Of a stretch of 64,000 bases of DNA, positions 45,295 to 53,197 are shown in pieces; position 1 is the first letter of the stretch; every line of letters begins with the position of its first letter. Below the pieces are notes generated by a model. It made no database searches, was not told the origin of the DNA, and saw only the letters and a program-made list of their open reading frames with translations. Where the stretch lies: positions 1 to 64,000 of the forward strand of contig CAIYVZ010000088.1 of assembly GCA_903929755.1 (NCBI GenBank). The letters are read 5' to 3'. The position numbers and the translations under genes are program-made. Source of the stretch: an uncultured Acidobacteriia bacterium (GTDB taxonomy: Bacteria > Acidobacteriota > Terriglobia > Bryobacterales > Bryobacteraceae).

Positions 45295-45843
45295 ATGCGT
45301 ACGCTCCTGATCTTCGCGCTGCTGACGCTGAGTGCCTGCAAGCGGGCACCGGAGTTGCAGCGTTTTGGACAGGTGCCACCTTTCGAACTGGTCTCGCAGA
45401 CGGGACAGAAGACCACGCTCGCCGATTTGAAGGGCCACGTTTGGGTGGCGGATGCGATCTTCACGAACTGCCAGGGACCGTGTCCGATGATGACGAGCAA
45501 GATGCGCGGGGTGGCGAAGGAAGTGGAGTCGCTCGCCGATGTTCGAATCGTCTCGCTGACGGTGGATCCCGAGCATGACAGCCCAGAAGTGCTGACGGCC
45601 TATGCGAAGGAGTTCCAGGCGAAGCCGGCGCAGTGGTTGTTCCTGACGGGGGCGAAGGAAGTGCTGAATCAGGTGAGCCAGGATGGCCTGCACCTCAGCA
45701 AAGTGGACGGCTCGCTGGAACACGGAACGCGGTTCGCGTTGGTAGACAAGACCGGCGAAGTCCGCGGTTACTACCGGCCTTTTGAGAAGGCGGAGATGAA
45801 GAAGCTTGTCTCGGATATTCGGGATCTTGCGGAGCCGCGATAA
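45295..45843 (+). CDS. SCO1/SenC-type copper-binding thioredoxin-fold protein
   Basis: A 182-residue exported lipoprotein-like protein: a short signal ends L-S-A-C-K (lipobox-like, about 12-16). The copper motif is T-N-C-Q-G-P-C-P-M-M (C-x-x-x-C), and the distal His is in E-H-G-T-R-F. V-D-P-E-H-D-S-P-E is the SCO hallmark between them. SCO1 proteins deliver copper to cytochrome oxidase or protect from copper stress. No cox genes are adjacent; the following genes are Cys-rich exported proteins, which supports a metal role. Confidence 0.85.
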   Translation: MRTLLIFALLTLSACKRAPELQRFGQVPPFELVSQTGQKTTLADLKGHVWVADAIFTNCQGPCPMMTSKMRGVAKEVESLADVRIVSLTVDPEHDSPEVLTAYAKEFQAKPAQWLFLTGAKEVLNQVSQDGLHLSKVDGSLEHGTRFALVDKTGEVRGYYRPFEKAEMKKLVSDIRDLAEPR

Positions 45844-45852
45844 ACAACTGTA

Positions 45853-46233
45853 ATGAATAATCGTGCTATACTTGCCTTGGTGCGGCGCAGTGTAGCCATT
45901 TTGATGACGTTGCTGGTTAGCCTCTGGCTGATCTCCCCGGCATTTTCTGCGCCTTCGCAAGAGACTCCGTCGTGCTGTAAGCGCGGAGGCAAGCACCAGT
46001 GCTCCATGGGTAAGGCGCGGGGCGACGGCGCAGTGTTCTCCAGCGCAGCCTGCCCTCAGTTCCAGTGGCAGGGCGCTTCAGTGGTCCAGCATTCTGTGGA
46101 CGCGGCAAAGCCGTCTGTCCAGCTGGCCGCGATCCAGGCAGAAACGGCCGCAATAGCGGAACCTTCCAACGCGGCTGACCGACTGCAGGTTCGGAACCTG
46201 CAGTCACGCGGACCGCCCGCGTCGCGCCTCTAA
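45853..46233 (+). CDS. Small exported Cys-rich protein A
   Basis: A 126-residue protein of unknown family. A strong signal peptide (about 10-32, V-A-I-L-M-T-L-L-V-S-L-W-L-I) is followed by S-C-C-K-R-G-G-K-H-Q-C-S-M and one more Cys. Three cysteines and nearby His/Met would suit Cu(I) or another soft metal. The rest is Ala/Gln-rich and low in complexity. It lies nine bases after the SCO1 stop. The C-C-K-R signature recurs in the next protein, so the two are probably related. No clear SD is seen. Confidence 0.65.
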   Translation: MNNRAILALVRRSVAILMTLLVSLWLISPAFSAPSQETPSCCKRGGKHQCSMGKARGDGAVFSSAACPQFQWQGASVVQHSVDAAKPSVQLAAIQAETAAIAEPSNAADRLQVRNLQSRGPPASRL

Positions 46234-46283
46234 ACGCAACCCTCCCCGTAGTTTGTCTTCGTACCCCCATTTGAAGGGAAGTA

Positions 46284-46685
46284 ATGTTCTCGTATTGCCG
46301 TCGATACGGCATGAGACTTTGGCGCGTTGTAGCGATTCTTGCTGCGCTCGCGCTGCTGGCCCCTTTTGCCTCGGCTGTTATCTCGCTGGTCCCGGACAAG
46401 GGCTGCGAGATGGAGTGCTGCAAGAGGAGCGCCGCCAAAGACTCGTGCCACCGAGCTAAGCATTCGCGCCACGAAAGTGGTCCGAAGTTCTCCGCCGAAG
46501 TTTCGTGCGGGGAGTGCTGCGCTGTGCCTCCGGGTATCGCGGCGATAGATGTTGAATTCCCCTCCGCTTGCGCACAGACGACGCCACAGACTTTTTCTAA
46601 GCCTGCGAGCGCTGCTGCGCGGCGCACAACATACTTCTCCCCTGTTGCTCACTGTCTGTTTCAACGGCCTCCTCCGGCCTGCTGA
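46284..46685 (+). CDS. Small exported Cys/His-rich protein B
   Basis: A 133-residue protein. It has a signal peptide (about 11-31) and a cluster C-E-M-E-C-C-K-R-S-A-A-K-D-S-C-H-R-A-K, then H-S-R-H and C-G-E-C-C. With at least nine Cys and four His it looks built to bind a metal. The ATG at 46284 is preceded by AGGGAAG; M-R-L-W at 46311 is an alternative. It resembles protein A in the C-C-K-R block and sits 50 bases before TonB receptor 3. I know no named family for it. Confidence 0.65.
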   Translation: MFSYCRRYGMRLWRVVAILAALALLAPFASAVISLVPDKGCEMECCKRSAAKDSCHRAKHSRHESGPKFSAEVSCGECCAVPPGIAAIDVEFPSACAQTTPQTFSKPASAAARRTTYFSPVAHCLFQRPPPAC

Positions 46686-46734
46686 CGAATTCGCGGTACT
46701 TCGCTCGTCAGCTCAGCACACAGGGAGAAATAAT

Positions 46735-49509
46735 TTGAAAACGACAGGATTACTATTTCTTGCGGCGATCAGTGCGTCTTTGACGCCCGCGCAGGAAACG
46801 ATACATTACGCAAGCATCGGAGGCCGCGTGACGGACCCGAGCGCAGCGGTTGTGACGAATGCGAAGGTGACGGCCACCGACACGGATACGAAGTTGACAA
46901 ACAATGCGACCACCGACCGCGAGGGCAGGTTCCGGTTTCCGATTCTGAAGCCTGGCGGGTACCAGATTACGGTAGCGAAAGACGGCTTCTCGACACAGAC
47001 GCAGAACATAACCCTGACGGTGGGGTCGGCATTTGATGTGCCCGTGACATTGACGATTGGGAACGCCGGGACGACGGTGAATATTGAGTCGTCGAGCGAA
47101 CTTCTGGAGACGTCGCGAACGCAGATCTCCGGAACCGTATCGCAGGCCGAAGTGGCGAACCTGCCGATGAATGGCCGGAACTTTCTGGATTTGGCGCTGC
47201 TGGTTCCCGGGGTGTCACCGACCAATACGGCCAGCACGCAGTTGTTTGCGGAGACGTCGGCTTCGCCGGGACAAGGCATCTCGGTGGGCAGCCAGCGGAA
47301 TTTTTCGAACAGCTTTATTGTGGACGGTTTGTCGTCGAATGACGACGCGGCGGGGCTGATCGGAACGTTCTACAGCGTGGGTGTGGTGAGTGAATTTCAG
47401 GTGGTGACTTCGGGCGGCCAGGCAGAGTTTGGACGCGCGCTGGGCGGGTACATCAGCATGGTGACCAGGAGTGGCGGGAACACAGTGCACGGCGATGCGC
47501 AGGGTTATTTCCGCAACCAGAGACTCAACGCCAACAATGCGCTCTCTGCCGCGAAACTGCCTATGACCCAGGCGCAGTATGAAGCTAGTCTGGGCGGACC
47601 GGTGGTTCGAGACCGCACCTTTTACTTTGGAAGCTTTGAGCAGAGACTGCTGAATCAGAGCGGGCTGGTGACGATTCTGCCGGCGAATGTGACTGCAATT
47701 AACAGCCGCCTGGCGGCAGCTGGTTTCAAGGGTGCCCCCATAGCGACCGGGTTGTATTCGAATCCGGTGCACAACGTAAATTTCCTGGGGAAGGTGGATC
47801 ATCGGTTCAGCAATCGCGATGATTTCAATCTTCGGTACAGCGTTTACCACGTGGTGAGCAGCAACTCACGAGGCGCGGGGGCGTTGAGTGCGCCAACGGC
47901 TTCGGCGGGGCTGGACAACACGGACCATACGCTTGCGGCGGGGAACGTCTACACGCTGTCACCAAAGATGGTGAACGAGACGCGGGGACAGTTCACTTAC
48001 AGCGACCTGAAAGCGGAGCCGAGCGACCAGGCAGGGCCATCTATCAGCATCTCGGGTGTGGCGAGTTTTGGACGGTTGTCGGGCTCACCCACGGGACGGC
48101 TGAATAAGTTATATGAAGTGGCTGACAACTTTAGCTGGCAGGTGGGATCGCACGCGTTCCGGGCCGGAATCGACTATCTGTATAACGATTTGACGATTAC
48201 CTATCCCCGGTCAGTGAAGGGCGCGTATTCGTTTTCGTCGCTGGCGAACTTCCTGAGCGGCACCTATAACAACGCGGGGTATACGCAGACGTTTGGAAAT
48301 ACGGTAGTGGGGCAGACGAATGCCAATGTTGGTTTCTACGCTCAGGACGAATGGAAGATTACGCCAAAGCTGACGCTCAATGCCGGGCTTCGCTATGACC
48401 TGCAGTGGCTGCAGACGATTGCCACCGACACGAATAATGTGTCGCCACGGGTTGGCCTGGCATGGTCACCGGGCGGGTCGCGAAACACGGTGTTGCGGGC
48501 CAGCTATGGCCTCTACTACGACCGCGTGCCGCTGCGTGCGCTGGCGAACGCGCTGTTGTCTTCAAACAACACAACGAACCTGACTGCGGCAAGCCAGATC
48601 AGCCTGAGCCTTTCACCCACGCAGGCCGGGGCACCGGTATTTCCGAACGTGCTGACCAATGTTCCGGCGGGGGCGCTGGTGAACTTTACGACGATGAAAC
48701 CGAACCTGCAGAATGCGTATTCGACGCAGGCGAGCGTGGAAGTGGAGCGAAAACTGGGACGGTACGGGACGGTGTCGGCGGCCTTTGAACGCCTGCGGGG
48801 CCTGCATCTGATTATCGCCATGAACCAGAATGTTCCGACGTGTACAGCGGCGGGCACGAACAACGGGTGCCGCCCGAAGCCGAACTTCGCGAATAACAGC
48901 CAATATTCTTCGCTGGCGGATTCGAAGTACAACGCACTGCATGTTTCCTATACGGCGAAGCCGACCAAGTGGGCCACGTGGCGCGTGTCCTGGGATTACT
49001 CGAAGGCGTTCGATAACGTGGGCGAATTCTTCTTCAGCGGGCCGGTGGATCAGTACAACATCTGGCGGGACTGGGGACGGTCGGACGACGACCAGCGGCA
49101 CCGTTTAGTGACCTCTGGAACTTTCCAGCTACCGGCAAAGTTCCAGTTGAGCGGCATGGTGCAGTATTACTCGGCGCTGCCCTTGAATCCGACGACGGGC
49201 GTAAGCACGATACAGGGAACCACGGCGCGTCCGCTTGTCAACGGCGATTATGTCCAACGTAACTCAGCCGCAGGGTTCGATAATTTTGTGGTGAACACCC
49301 GACTGAGCCGTATGTTTCGGCTGACCGAGAAGCTGCGACTGGAGGGGATCGCCGAAGCCTTCAACGCGCTGAACCACCGCAATAATCTGATCCCGAACGG
49401 CGTCTTCGGAACGGGTGCGTATCCGGCTACACCGGCGGCAACATTCGGCGTTCCAGGCGCGGCAGGCGACCCTCGCGGAGTGCAGTTGGCGCTGCGATTG
49501 AAGTTTTAG
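46735..49509 (+). CDS. Oar-like TonB-dependent receptor 3
   Basis: A 924-residue outer-membrane receptor started by TTG at 46735, with AGGGAGA six bases upstream. The frame is open back to 46549, but that extension overlaps protein B in another frame. Features in order: signal peptide (about 1-20); carboxypeptidase-regulatory-like domain (about 27-105, G-G-R-V-T-D-P-S-A-A-V-V); plug region with N-L-P-M-N-G-R-N-F-L-D-L-A (about 142) and F-I-V-D-G-L-S-S-N-D-D (about 193); barrel with C-terminal A-L-R-L-K-F. Its place in a Cys-rich/SCO1 cluster makes metal or metal-chelate uptake possible, but this receptor family more often takes organic ligands. Confidence 0.9.
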   Translation: MKTTGLLFLAAISASLTPAQETIHYASIGGRVTDPSAAVVTNAKVTATDTDTKLTNNATTDREGRFRFPILKPGGYQITVAKDGFSTQTQNITLTVGSAFDVPVTLTIGNAGTTVNIESSSELLETSRTQISGTVSQAEVANLPMNGRNFLDLALLVPGVSPTNTASTQLFAETSASPGQGISVGSQRNFSNSFIVDGLSSNDDAAGLIGTFYSVGVVSEFQVVTSGGQAEFGRALGGYISMVTRSGGNTVHGDAQGYFRNQRLNANNALSAAKLPMTQAQYEASLGGPVVRDRTFYFGSFEQRLLNQSGLVTILPANVTAINSRLAAAGFKGAPIATGLYSNPVHNVNFLGKVDHRFSNRDDFNLRYSVYHVVSSNSRGAGALSAPTASAGLDNTDHTLAAGNVYTLSPKMVNETRGQFTYSDLKAEPSDQAGPSISISGVASFGRLSGSPTGRLNKLYEVADNFSWQVGSHAFRAGIDYLYNDLTITYPRSVKGAYSFSSLANFLSGTYNNAGYTQTFGNTVVGQTNANVGFYAQDEWKITPKLTLNAGLRYDLQWLQTIATDTNNVSPRVGLAWSPGGSRNTVLRASYGLYYDRVPLRALANALLSSNNTTNLTAASQISLSLSPTQAGAPVFPNVLTNVPAGALVNFTTMKPNLQNAYSTQASVEVERKLGRYGTVSAAFERLRGLHLIIAMNQNVPTCTAAGTNNGCRPKPNFANNSQYSSLADSKYNALHVSYTAKPTKWATWRVSWDYSKAFDNVGEFFFSGPVDQYNIWRDWGRSDDDQRHRLVTSGTFQLPAKFQLSGMVQYYSALPLNPTTGVSTIQGTTARPLVNGDYVQRNSAAGFDNFVVNTRLSRMFRLTEKLRLEGIAEAFNALNHRNNLIPNGVFGTGAYPATPAATFGVPGAAGDPRGVQLALRLKF

Positions 49510-49525
49510 GACAAGGAGAGAAACG

Positions 49526-50605
49526 ATGCTGGCACTGGCTGTTATTGCGTTAACTCAATTGGCATTTACGGACTTCAAGCCGGTTGTGGCCGACGCGCCG
49601 AACCGGGAACCGCGAATGGCCGTCTCGGGTCACACGGTGGCGCTGGCATATGGTTCCGGGAACGGAATCTATGTGGCGACATCGGTTGATGACGGGACGA
49701 CATTTGGGAAGCCCGTACAAGTGGGCACGGCTTCCGTAGTGCCACTCAGCCGGCACCGGGGGCCGCGGATTGTCTTCGCAAAGGGCGCGATGGTGGTGAC
49801 GGCTGTGGTCGGCGAAAAAGAGGCTGCGGGGACTCATGCGCATGGTCTTCCGGCGGATGGAGACCTGTTCGCCTGGCGCTCGGCGGACGGTGGCAAGACA
49901 TGGGGGAGACCTTCAAGAGTCAACGATGTTCCGGCAGCTCCCCGCGAGGGTTTGCACACGCTGGTGGCGAAGCCGAACGGAGACCTGTTCGCTGCCTGGT
50001 TGGATCTGCGTCAGGAGGGGACCCGGTTGTATGGCGCGTCGTCAAAGGACGGCGGCCTGACATGGGGCGCCAATGTGAAGCTGTATGAATCGCCCGACGG
50101 GACGATTTGCCAGTGCTGCCATCCGAATGCCTCGGTAGCAGGTGACGGAACGCTGGAAGTCATGTGGCGGAATTGCCTGGACGGAGCCAGAGACTTCTAC
50201 CTGATTCGCGCCCTGGATGGCCAGACGTTTGGGAAAGCGCAGAAACTGGGTGAAGGGACATGGAAGATCAATGCTTGTCCGATGGACGGCGGCGACCTGA
50301 CGCATGTGGATGGAAAGACTGTTTCGGTGTGGCGGCGTATGGAGGATATCTACATCGCCGAACCGGGCAAGGCTGAAGTTAAGGTTGGTCCAGGCCACGA
50401 TGTTATGGCCGCCAGTACCGGACATTCGCTTTGGCTGCTGTACGTGCAGGGCGGGAAGGCGATGTTGTGGAACGACGGGAAGATACAGCAGGTCGGGGAA
50501 GATGTGACTTTCCCTGCCCTGGTGGCATTGGGCGACGGGCGGTTACTCGCGGCCTGGGAGCAAGGTGGAGCAATCGTGGTGAAGAAGGTCGGTCAGCAGC
50601 AATAG
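49526..50605 (+). CDS. Exported BNR/sialidase-like propeller with C-Q-C-C-H motif
   Basis: A 359-residue protein. A short signal (about 1-14) leads to a six-bladed sialidase-type propeller with Asp-box-like S-x-D-x-G-x-T-W segments (S-A-D-G-G-K-T-W, S-K-D-G-G-L-T-W). Around residue 194 it carries T-I-C-Q-C-C-H-P-N-A, three Cys and a His in seven positions, unusual for a sialidase. The sialidase catalytic Arg triad and Tyr are not evident, so the enzyme role is doubtful. It starts 16 bases after TonB receptor 3 and is the last gene of the cluster. Metal binding is inferred from the motif and neighbours. Confidence 0.7.
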   Translation: MLALAVIALTQLAFTDFKPVVADAPNREPRMAVSGHTVALAYGSGNGIYVATSVDDGTTFGKPVQVGTASVVPLSRHRGPRIVFAKGAMVVTAVVGEKEAAGTHAHGLPADGDLFAWRSADGGKTWGRPSRVNDVPAAPREGLHTLVAKPNGDLFAAWLDLRQEGTRLYGASSKDGGLTWGANVKLYESPDGTICQCCHPNASVAGDGTLEVMWRNCLDGARDFYLIRALDGQTFGKAQKLGEGTWKINACPMDGGDLTHVDGKTVSVWRRMEDIYIAEPGKAEVKVGPGHDVMAASTGHSLWLLYVQGGKAMLWNDGKIQQVGEDVTFPALVALGDGRLLAAWEQGGAIVVKKVGQQQ

Positions 50606-50794
50606 CTGCTGCCTGACGGCCATTTTGGGCCAGGTGGCTGGCTGGCGCCCGACGACTTCCACCAGGTTATTCGGAGCGAGATCCATGCGGAGGAGATGCA
50701 GGCCCCATTGCGGTAGAACCTGACCGTTGGCGGTCGTTTCCCTGCCCCAAAGCCGCGGCGGCGAAAAGCAGCCCAGACCGGCGAAACGAATCAT
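50543..50794 (-). CDS. Small ORF after the DUF6152 gene, doubtful
   Basis: An 83-codon frame. Its ATG overlaps the stop of the DUF6152 gene (ATGA) and it runs about 63 bases into the 3' end of the convergent propeller gene. It contains L-P-Q-W-G-L-H-L-L-R-M-D-L-A-P-N-N-L-V-E, which has a real-protein look, and a hydrophobic L-L-L-L-T-D-L-L. I recognise no family. The overlap supports translation, while the antisense end argues against it. It may be the remnant of a larger gene. Confidence 0.3.
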   Translation of the reverse strand: MIRFAGLGCFSPPRLWGRETTANGQVLPQWGLHLLRMDLAPNNLVEVVGRQPATWPKMAVRQQLLLLTDLLHHDCSTLLPGRE

Positions 50795-51234
50795 TTCTTC
50801 CCTTGCGGCGTGGCCTCTTCGATGGGCTTGGCGTCCGGTGGTGGTGCGCCAGGCCCGGAGGAGCCGAGGAAGAGTTTGCGGCCATCGGTCAGCGTGATGT
50901 TGCGGCCATTGGCGCGAAGCTGGGTATGGTCGCGAGCCTGGTAGCCATCGACGATGACCTCGGTACCAACCTTGACTGAGTCGCGCGTGACACCACGGCG
51001 AAGGAGCGAGTTGGGGCTGCCGCCTTCAATCATCCAGACTTCCGTGCCGCCGCTGGGTTTCGTGACTTCGACGTGGATCCAGGAGTGCGGATTCACCCAC
51101 TCCACTTTGATGATCTTGCCACGAAGAAGAACGGGCCTGTTGGCATCGAATTCGCCCCCAAAAGCATGGTGGGCCAGCGCAGCCGGGACGCTGATGGCGA
51201 ATAGGGCGAGGGTGGCGAGGATGGATTTGCGCAT
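50791..51234 (-). CDS. DUF6152 family exported protein
   Basis: A 147-residue exported protein. Its signal peptide ends at A-L-A-H-H-A-F. Mature residues start H-H-A-F-G-G-E-F-D, and the family core follows: G-K-I-I-K-V-E-W-V-N-P-H-S-W-I-H-V-E-V, then S-P-N-S-L-L-R-R-G-V-T-R-D-S-V-K-V-G-T. These features match DUF6152, common in Acidobacteriota and proteobacteria next to WEGDTLVID-type secreted proteins. Function is unknown; the fold is probably an OB-like beta barrel. It lies 11 bases after the paralog gene at 51246. Confidence 0.8.
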   Translation of the reverse strand: MRKSILATLALFAISVPAALAHHAFGGEFDANRPVLLRGKIIKVEWVNPHSWIHVEVTKPSGGTEVWMIEGGSPNSLLRRGVTRDSVKVGTEVIVDGYQARDHTQLRANGRNITLTDGRKLFLGSSGPGAPPPDAKPIEEATPQGKK

Positions 51235-51245
51235 GGGAAGTCCTT

Positions 51246-52271
51246 CTATTTCTTAGCAGCCTGCTCGGCCTCGCGCAAGCGGGCTCCGCGCAGGATGTCA
51301 CTCATCGAGTAGTTTGCTTCATGACAGGCGTATTCGTACATGGGTTCGCTGGTCTGGGGCCAGGCGTACTCGCCGGTCCAGGGGCGGTCCCAGGTGTCGG
51401 GATCGTCGAGGGTGAAGCGGTAGAGCAGCGTTTTCGCGTCCAGGCGGGAGATACGCTCCACCACATGGAGGTTTTCGGTCGCATTGCGGAAGCGGGTCTT
51501 ATCGGTGAAGTTGGTGGTGTCGATGACCAGCGTGTCGCCTTCCCAGTGACCGACGGAATCGCCCAGCCACTGGCGAATTGTTTTGGGGAGATGCTCCGAG
51601 TTCATGCGAATGATGCGGGCGTCGTGCACCATTTCGGTGAGGATCATCACCGAATCTTTCGTCTGCACAATCTGGTGGAGGTTGTTGTAGAAGTAGTTGG
51701 GCAGCGCAGGGGGCCCCGACGTGGAGGCAAAACCGAGCAGGCAGCGCTCGCCTAAGGGGCGGCGCTCAGGATCGTCATAGGCTCCCGCAGGCTCCAGGCC
51801 AGGGTCTTTGCTTTCCAGCGCATCGGAAGTGGGCGCAAGGGCGCGCTGAGCGGCGATGCGGGCGCGGGCTTTCTGGTTCAGCGGCGGCACTCGACCATCG
51901 GCGGGATCGACCAGGATGGAGGCGCGCTTCTCACCGCGAACCACGGTGAGGGAGTTCCCCATGTCGAGCCAGAACGTGTTGTAGCCACCCACATTGCCGG
52001 CGGCTCCGCCGGAGCCATCGCCACCTTTGGGCGGGGCTTTTCGATCCGCTGCGATAGGTTGGTCACCGGCGGCGTTCTGGGCGGCAATCAGCTTTTCGGC
52101 GGCTTCGGCTTCGGCCTTACTGAGAACCAGTCTGGAGCCGGCCGCGCGTTCCAGCGGCGTAAGAGTGGCCGCGTCGTACATGCCCTGAAAGTCGGGATGG
52201 CCATCGGGGAGACGCGGCGTCTGCGCGGTGCAAGTAAGCGCAAGGGCCGTGAAGGCGAGAAGGATTTTCAT
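51246..52271 (-). CDS. Exported WEGDTLVID-type hypothetical protein 1
   Basis: A 341-residue exported protein. Signal peptide about 1-17, then a Pro/Gly/Ala-rich N-terminal third (L-P-D-G-H-P-D-F-Q-G-M-Y-D near 20). The conserved core has S-V-G-H-W-E-G-D-T-L-V-I-D-T-T-N-F (about 235), H-V-V-E-R-I-S-R (about 262) and W-T-G-E-Y-A-W (about 290). The same core is in the next gene. Members are secreted, abundant in soil Acidobacteriota, and of unknown function. The order is protein 2, protein 1, DUF6152 with gaps of 12 and 11 bases, so the three form an operon. Confidence 0.8.
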   Translation of the reverse strand: MKILLAFTALALTCTAQTPRLPDGHPDFQGMYDAATLTPLERAAGSRLVLSKAEAEAAEKLIAAQNAAGDQPIAADRKAPPKGGDGSGGAAGNVGGYNTFWLDMGNSLTVVRGEKRASILVDPADGRVPPLNQKARARIAAQRALAPTSDALESKDPGLEPAGAYDDPERRPLGERCLLGFASTSGPPALPNYFYNNLHQIVQTKDSVMILTEMVHDARIIRMNSEHLPKTIRQWLGDSVGHWEGDTLVIDTTNFTDKTRFRNATENLHVVERISRLDAKTLLYRFTLDDPDTWDRPWTGEYAWPQTSEPMYEYACHEANYSMSDILRGARLREAEQAAKK

Positions 52272-52283
52272 CAGATAAGCTCC

Positions 52284-53108
52284 TTAGCGGAAAAGCGGCT
52301 TCTTGCGGAATGGACCGTAGACAAGTTCTTCCACAAATTCGACGCATTTGAAGTCCATCACCCGGGCGTTTTTCTCCTGACGGCGATAGAGCGCCATGCT
52401 CATTTTCCAGGGACGGGTGAAGACGTTGGCGTCTTCAATCGTGGCCTCGTAACGGATAACGTCGGGGCTGGTGCGGGTGTAGCGTTCCACGACGTGAAGC
52501 GCTTCGGAATGGAAGTTGCCGGAGCGGTCGAACCAGGTGGAATCGTTGAAACCGGTGACGTCGATGACCAGCGTGTCGCCCTCCCAGCGGCCCACGGACT
52601 GGCCCATCCAGGAATCCACCGGAGCGGGGCCTGGGTCTCTGAAATAGATATCGCGGACGGCCCCGGCATATTCGTAGGTGAAGAAGACGCCCTTCGCGGA
52701 CTGCAGGATCTGGAACGGGTACGGCATATAGGTGGCGCGCGGAACGCCAGGCAGGTAGCACTTGATTTCAGGATCGCGTTCGAGCCATTTTTCGCGATTT
52801 TCGTCGCGTTTGGCAAGGGCCTCGGGCTTGTAGGGGAGCGGGCCACCATCGACAACGCCGACACCAGGCGGGACGGAGCCGACAGCTCCGAGCGCGAGGA
52901 CGGGGGCGGCTGGTACGGGGCCATAGGGGCCTTTCTGCGTAGCCAAAGCCGGGCGCGCCATGTGCATTTCGACATCGTAATTGGCCTCATTGATTACTTG
53001 CCAGATGCCGTTGAGGTCAGGGTGCGTGCTGCCAGCGACTCGGGGAGCGCGCCAGGTTTGGGCCGACACGCTGAGAACGAATAGAAATACAATGCAGAGT
53101 TTCTTCAT
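52284..53108 (-). CDS. Exported WEGDTLVID-type hypothetical protein 2
   Basis: A 274-residue exported protein started at the ATG at 53108, where M-K-K-L-C-I-V-F-L-F-V-L-S-V-S-A-Q is a good signal peptide; the open frame extends back to 53162 without protein-like content. The core matches protein 1: S-V-G-R-W-E-G-D-T-L-V-I-D-V-T-G-F (about 180) and H-V-V-E-R-Y-T-R (about 207), with W-K-M-S-M-A-L-Y (about 238) replacing the W-T-G-E motif. Upstream it carries P-D-L-N-G-I-W-Q-V-I-N. It is first in the three-gene run ending with DUF6152. Function unknown. Confidence 0.8.
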   Translation of the reverse strand: MKKLCIVFLFVLSVSAQTWRAPRVAGSTHPDLNGIWQVINEANYDVEMHMARPALATQKGPYGPVPAAPVLALGAVGSVPPGVGVVDGGPLPYKPEALAKRDENREKWLERDPEIKCYLPGVPRATYMPYPFQILQSAKGVFFTYEYAGAVRDIYFRDPGPAPVDSWMGQSVGRWEGDTLVIDVTGFNDSTWFDRSGNFHSEALHVVERYTRTSPDVIRYEATIEDANVFTRPWKMSMALYRRQEKNARVMDFKCVEFVEELVYGPFRKKPLFR

Positions 53109-53197
53109 CGAGGCAGAGATCAGGCTAGCAGTTTTTTGGGATCTGCGCTGAAGTACCGCCATTCCAGCCAGTAGCCGGGTGGTGTTCGGACGGTGAG

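Follow-up and report, generated by a model that had tools for sequence, protein, structure and literature searches.

We report that two Cys-rich exported proteins encoded in tandem in an uncultured Acidobacteriia bacterium, here called A and B, are probably metal-sensing leader peptides that act in series, and that regulated stalling on them probably controls an operon of a TonB-dependent receptor and a beta-propeller protein. The window, the whole stretch of 64,000 nucleotides that was analysed, is part of contig 88 of a 6.86 Mb genome, and the ORF check confirmed the five same-direction genes that the earlier note had placed at 45295-50605, all on the plus strand: an SCO1/SenC lipoprotein with a CxxxC motif (45295..45843), A (45853..46233, a predicted exported leader peptide or uORF of the RGPP family, family alignment A5), B (46284..46685, a second one, on the RPPP branch of the same family, family alignment A6), a TonB-dependent receptor of the Oar/OMP_b-brl_4 type with a TTG start (46735..49509), and an exported four-Cys beta-propeller with a sialidase-like fold (49526..50605). 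Downstream, at 50791-53162 on the minus strand, lie convergent genes for a DUF6152 protein and two exported proteins, and these two (51246-52271 and 52284-53162) are related to each other. The basis computed here consists of conservation, placement, an RNA fold common to three genomes and family links, from which we infer stalling by A and B, by analogy with known arrest peptides, as well as copper as the ligand, the direction of control and metal binding by the propeller.

Protein A has 126 residues with 4 Cys and 2 His, and protein B has 133 residues with 11 Cys and 4 His; neither gave a significant match in Pfam or NCBIfam, and the literal string CCKR occurs in both, as the earlier note had observed in proposing a shared C-C-K-R block. 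The two are homologous (hhalign probability 96.8%) and, judged by sequence comparison, belong to one fast-evolving exported family. In its alignments, every member has a visibly hydrophobic N-terminal segment, after which come a Cys/His block, a middle part that varies freely and a constant end. In A, the metal-ligand block CCKRGGKHQC (residues 41-50, 45973..46002), Cys67 (46051-46053) and an arrest-like RGPP motif four residues before the stop (residues 119-122, 46207..46218) hold all the invariant columns of the family alignment, namely C41, C42, G46, H48, C50, C67, R119, G120, P121 and P122. In B, the corresponding elements are the metal-ligand block CEMECCKRSAAKDSCH (residues 41-56, 46404..46451), in which C55 is invariant and C46 nearly so, a second Cys cluster CGECC (46506-46520) with the invariant C75, and an arrest-like RPPP motif two residues before the stop (residues 128-131, 46665..46676), wherein R128-P131 are invariant and the preceding Q127 is nearly so.

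A search of 121 genomes of the same family yielded relatives of both A and B, and searches of 297 genomes across the phylum found the A/B family also in other families, where the motif reads RGPP or RAPP. The genomes of these relatives are named in the collection as Bryobacterales or Acidobacteriota, and some records bear taxonomic names that cannot be relied on; two records titled Bordetella parapertussis and Acidimicrobiia (L191 and L194) contain loci of the acidobacterial type and are probably MAGs with a wrong label. Same-family tandem uORFs, either A-A or B-B, are recurrent (L134, L136, L149, L172, L213, L215, L218, L221, L233 and L234), and two in series are therefore not peculiar to the window.

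The terminal RGPP of A and RPPP of B had been overlooked in the earlier note. As RGPP, RPPP or RAPP, the form that defines the arrest class when it lies near the C-terminus of a short exported ORF, the motif occurs 1-11 residues from the stop in 126 of 128 unique family members across Acidobacteriota, a count that is not independent because the motif is part of the collecting profiles and because related genomes were counted. Among the 80 named loci, RGPP ends all A (33/33) and RPPP ends all B (19/19), and the codons of the motif vary synonymously, which argues that the peptide, not the RNA, is under selection there. Although A and B share only 50-57% identity with their two nearest relatives (L125 and L126), as against 83-87% for the TonB receptor and the propeller, the strings SRGPPA in A and LFQRPPPAC in B are unchanged among the three genomes. 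The arrest cores of ApdA, ApdP, SecM and CruR are RAPP, RGPP or RAGP ends, the arrest of CruR at RAPP has been shown in vitro, and in arrest mutants the Arg is irreplaceable, Gly is fully active, being at least as good as Ala, and Pro is partly active (PMC12992588). The A/B family keeps to this set of permitted residues and has a matching architecture, which suggests ribosome arrest.

This conservation bears directly on the proposal of the earlier note that A and B are mature exported proteins capturing or detoxifying copper at the cell surface and that the propeller is a metal scaffold. The conserved Cys/His block and the export signal of both proteins, together with the copper-island context of propeller relatives, would fit such a role, which however leaves unexplained the invariant R-x-P-P just before the stop, the low identity of A and B relative to their neighbours and their fixed place directly before the TonB and propeller genes, and we regard it as very unlikely. 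Moreover, surface detoxification is less likely than regulated uptake, because BfrG/CrtA, the TonB receptor that has been studied under such a leader, transports copper and is itself repressed by it (PMC9426467, PMC12914433). Capture or storage was therefore rejected as the main reading on the terminal motif, the rapid drift and the operon position. The leader-peptide reading is preferred because conservation is essentially confined to the ligands and the terminal RxPP, with rapid drift elsewhere, and because the place before the TonB and propeller genes is fixed.

That placement is recurrent. For the 125 of the 128 uORFs with enough flank, the next gene encodes a TonB receptor in 95, another uORF in 15, a propeller in 8, a DJ-1/PfpI protein in 2 and others in 5, the last including PepSY_TM twice and CcmH once, and these counts, like those of the motif, are not independent. 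The earlier note had suggested looking for genomic co-occurrence of the propeller with A/B-type proteins, and it was found: an A/B-type uORF immediately precedes 38 of the 39 complete receptor genes of the propeller-neighbouring type, and in the sole exception (L141) a uORF lies about 490 bases upstream. In one locus (L164), B heads the propeller and A heads the TonB gene, and the order uORF(s)-TonB-propeller is kept also in two other families of the phylum (L288 and L289). The A/B family therefore occupies the CruR/CutF-type position before TonB or PepSY_TM genes. Family A uORFs with RGPP stand directly before a PepSY_TM gene in L217 and L219, and in two distant genomes an unexpected target, a DJ-1/PfpI-family gene, directly follows A/B-type uORFs (L052:1880-2728 and L251:2059-2901).

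The junction between B and the receptor gene carries an RNA feature that might connect the two. The first-ATG version of the TonB ORF (46549) overlaps B, and two relatives place the start at TTG 46735; we take this TTG, and not the ATG inside B, as the start, because the Shine-Dalgarno sequence and the start region are conserved in L125 and L126. The Shine-Dalgarno sequence GGGAGA (46723..46728) is invariant in the three genomes, and in the minimum free energy (MFE) fold of 46650-46765 it is paired with a stretch of B (46652..46659) shortly ahead of the RPPP codons, enclosing a hairpin (46681..46712, z -2.8) with the B stop codon (46683-46685) in its 5′ arm, while the outer pairing is missing from the centroid structure. 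Within the three close genomes in which this pairing was examined, the two relatives fold like the window with partly different base pairs (z -1.8 in L125 and -3.8 in L126), and the hairpin stands at the same place in L126 and in a variant form in L125. Since the pairing partner lies shortly ahead of the arrest motif, stalling of the ribosome at that point should release the TonB Shine-Dalgarno. Across the 39 loci, the mean fold z is -1.13 after the uORF stop, compared with -0.27 at TonB stops (p = 7e-4) and -0.06 inside TonB genes (p = 1e-4), although not every locus is strongly structured 3′ of the uORF. The gap between A and B, where A ends 50 bases before B, has no unusual structure (z +0.7). 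A promoter scan gave results at chance level, and the 9 terminator-like sites observed against 5.5 ± 2.4 expected are uninformative.

Based on these findings, our best reading, drawn by analogy, is that A and B would be CruR/CutF-like copper sensors that control an importer in the outer membrane, probably one for copper. In Bordetella pertussis, the uORF CruR precedes the TonB receptor gene bfrG; control by copper depends on the Cys motif of CruR, and expression depends on its RAPP (PMC9426467). Under copper scarcity, the ribosome would stall on RGPP of A or RPPP of B, with the N-terminus of the nascent chain already outside; stalled at RPPP, it would cover the pairing segment and the hairpin arm, so that the pairing between the B codons and the Shine-Dalgarno would open, the TonB receptor and the propeller would be made and copper would be taken up. 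Upon binding of copper to the CC..H.C block, the stall would be relieved and the ribosome would leave, whereupon the Shine-Dalgarno would be masked, or Rho would terminate transcription, and the operon would be shut. The propeller might act as a periplasmic Cys-site metal protein partnering the receptor, and the neighbouring SCO1 might pass copper to cytochrome oxidase. By analogy, the stalled state is likely the ON state, matching CruR, because a stall on B would free the TonB Shine-Dalgarno; low copper likewise keeps the CruR-controlled receptor on. Rho may be involved, the uORFs being somewhat C-rich (rut-like), a real but small excess over TonB that is not decisive.

The family is defined by Cys/His residues and the motif alone, and DJ-1/PfpI and CcmH genes after a few members hint at redox or cytochrome biogenesis, so that A and B might be arrest peptides sensing another cue, such as a soft metal (zinc or silver), periplasmic redox or Sec export. 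We consider a non-copper cue unlikely, as the SCO1 neighbour, the PepSY_TM partners, the copper-island propellers and a weak kinship with DUF2946 point to copper. PepSY_TM is the third gene of the cruR-bfrG operon. As for the kinship, A and B of the window do not match DUF2946 (PF11162), the curated cut-off being missed, and weak matches were obtained for 6 of 24 A relatives (best E 0.0015) and 1 of 18 B relatives (best E 0.0022).

The SCO1 protein itself has the features of an SCO1/SenC copper chaperone, with a PF02630 match of 84.9 bits against a cut-off of 22.8, the lipobox LSAC and the CxxxC motif NCQGPC. The earlier note had counted it as a cluster member; among the loci examined, however, it adjoins A only in the window, L125 and L126, and it was therefore rejected as a core member. 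It nevertheless fits functionally, because SCO occurs in some crtA copper-import operons (PMC12914433) and because, in a genome from a different family of Acidobacteriota, a CusF-SCO1 fusion gene (L290:7972-9255) immediately precedes a propeller gene.

The receptor carries CarboxypepD_reg, OMP_b-brl_4 and TonB barrel domains, and the propeller that follows it falls just below the cut-off for BNR_2. Its AlphaFold2 model is confident (pLDDT 92.5), and the closest solved structures found by Foldseek are sialidases and other sugar-active propellers. The protein carries CQCCHP at residues 195-200, and two Cys sites, CQCC (residues 195-198, 50108..50119) and the C251 motif CPMDG (residues 251-255, 50276..50290), which, from strand order, would sit in consecutive inter-blade loops of the model. 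C195, C197, C198 and C251 are invariant in 31/31 Acidobacteriota homologues and also in homologues from Bacteroidota and Proteobacteria. The residues invariant over 16 homologues are the start Met, G177, C195, C197, C198, R215, D223, W246, C251, P252, G255 and W269, with the two sites conserved across three phyla; they include no Tyr, no Glu and a single Arg, and the GH33 catalytic set (the Arg triad, the Tyr/Glu nucleophile pair and the acid Asp) is not conserved across this broad alignment. A canonical sialidase was rejected on this ground, in support of the earlier note, which had held that the propeller is not a sialidase.

Beyond the phylum, in Bacteroidota and Proteobacteria, the four-Cys gene, annotated as hypothetical or as 'sialidase family protein', lies inside a copper-resistance island in all six of the plasmids inspected (L119-L124): together with genes for a multicopper oxidase and RND efflux in Runella, copper ATPases in Adhaeribacter, DUF326 and heavy-metal-transport genes in Spirosoma, CusA and copper oxidase in Pseudosulfitobacter, CopC in Methylomagnum and multicopper oxidase fragments in Roseivivax. 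These plasmid propellers support the copper link of the earlier note and a copper-type reading of the cluster at 45295-50605. Propellers without a TonB neighbour within Acidobacteriota have mixed neighbours, CusF in L187 being the sole copper match among those scanned, and a second, more distant propeller gene lies in the same genome as the window (contig 95, L287:5924-7132) with neither a recognised uORF nor a TonB neighbour. These mixed neighbours, the export, the sialidase fold and the Asp-box sequences would also suit a glycan-binding or hydrolytic receptor partner, wherein the four Cys could pair as two structural disulfides. We hold such a partner to be plausible and yet the less probable case, since CxCC, with its adjacent Cys, would be unusual as a pattern for disulfides, the Arg triad and the Tyr/Glu pair are not conserved and the context in other phyla is that of copper islands. 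Going by its sequence, the propeller is probably a metal site and not a sialidase, and copper binding by the branch in the window is likely, though not established. Taken as a whole, the earlier note keeps its copper link and its non-sialidase propeller and loses copper capture or detoxification by A and B, against which ligand and RxPP conservation, drift and the fixed operon place all speak.

Copper-responsive RAPP/RGPP uORFs before TonB genes are known in principle and have been surveyed across Gram-negatives, and the A type may sit unnamed in the lists of that survey (PMC12992588). In the literature, we found no description of the RPPP branch, of tandem use, of an Acidobacteriota family with its own ligand block, of Shine-Dalgarno pairing inside a second uORF or of a four-Cys propeller as partner, and nothing beyond general surveys on the propeller in copper resistance or on acidobacterial uORFs. 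More tentatively, it is possible that the arrangement forms an Acidobacteriota-wide regulon, in which tandem nascent-chain copper sensors, RGPP then RPPP, of different stall strengths, with B codons acting as anti-Shine-Dalgarno, would control an Oar-type importer and a Cu-propeller of a new family shared with the copper islands of Bacteroidota and Proteobacteria. The proposal would turn "unknown Cys-rich exported proteins" into a regulatory mechanism open to testing, in a major soil phylum whose members are hard to grow, and naturally occurring arrest peptides that end in RPPP or stand in tandem and carry a metal-ligand block would be useful for learning how a stall of the ribosome is set or relieved by metal. 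In copper-resistance plasmids, the label 'sialidase family protein' is probably wrong, and the family is a candidate new copper protein family.

Compared with known systems, A and B resemble CruR as short exported uORFs with a Cys metal motif and a C-terminal RxPP near the stop, standing immediately before a TonB receptor gene, and PepSY_TM and SCO genes occur in related operons, as with CruR (DUF2946)-bfrG/crtA. However, their sequences lie below the DUF2946 cut-off, they carry a CC..G.H.C or CxMxCCK block instead of CxxC, their ends read RGPP or RPPP where that of CruR reads RAPP, they often come as a series of two, a short gap of 49 nt with Shine-Dalgarno pairing replaces the 162-nt Rho region, and the receptor is of the Oar type (CarboxypepD_reg/OMP_b-brl_4), followed by a propeller. 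Similarly, CutF of Rhodobacter capsulatus is an exported nascent copper sensor with a C-terminal Pro motif, and a stem-loop masks the Shine-Dalgarno of the next gene (PMC9973294), a masking that is predicted here; its target, however, is a multicopper oxidase that copper turns on, whereas A and B would act on a TonB receptor, with the opposite sign expected. With SecM, ApdA and ApdP (PMC10951299, PMC10951233, PMC12992588), A and B share the exported leader peptide and an R-x-P-P/RAGP core near the C-terminus, and the exposure of the next gene's Shine-Dalgarno by the stall, as in the control of secA by SecM, is proposed for A and B as well; those peptides are protein-export monitors, in contrast to A and B with their conserved metal-ligand block at the head of metal-type operons. 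The propeller, in turn, shares its fold and Asp-box sequences with GH33 sialidases and BNR_2, and differs from GH33 sialidases in that the catalytic set is not conserved and four invariant Cys with R215, D223, W246 and W269 are found instead.
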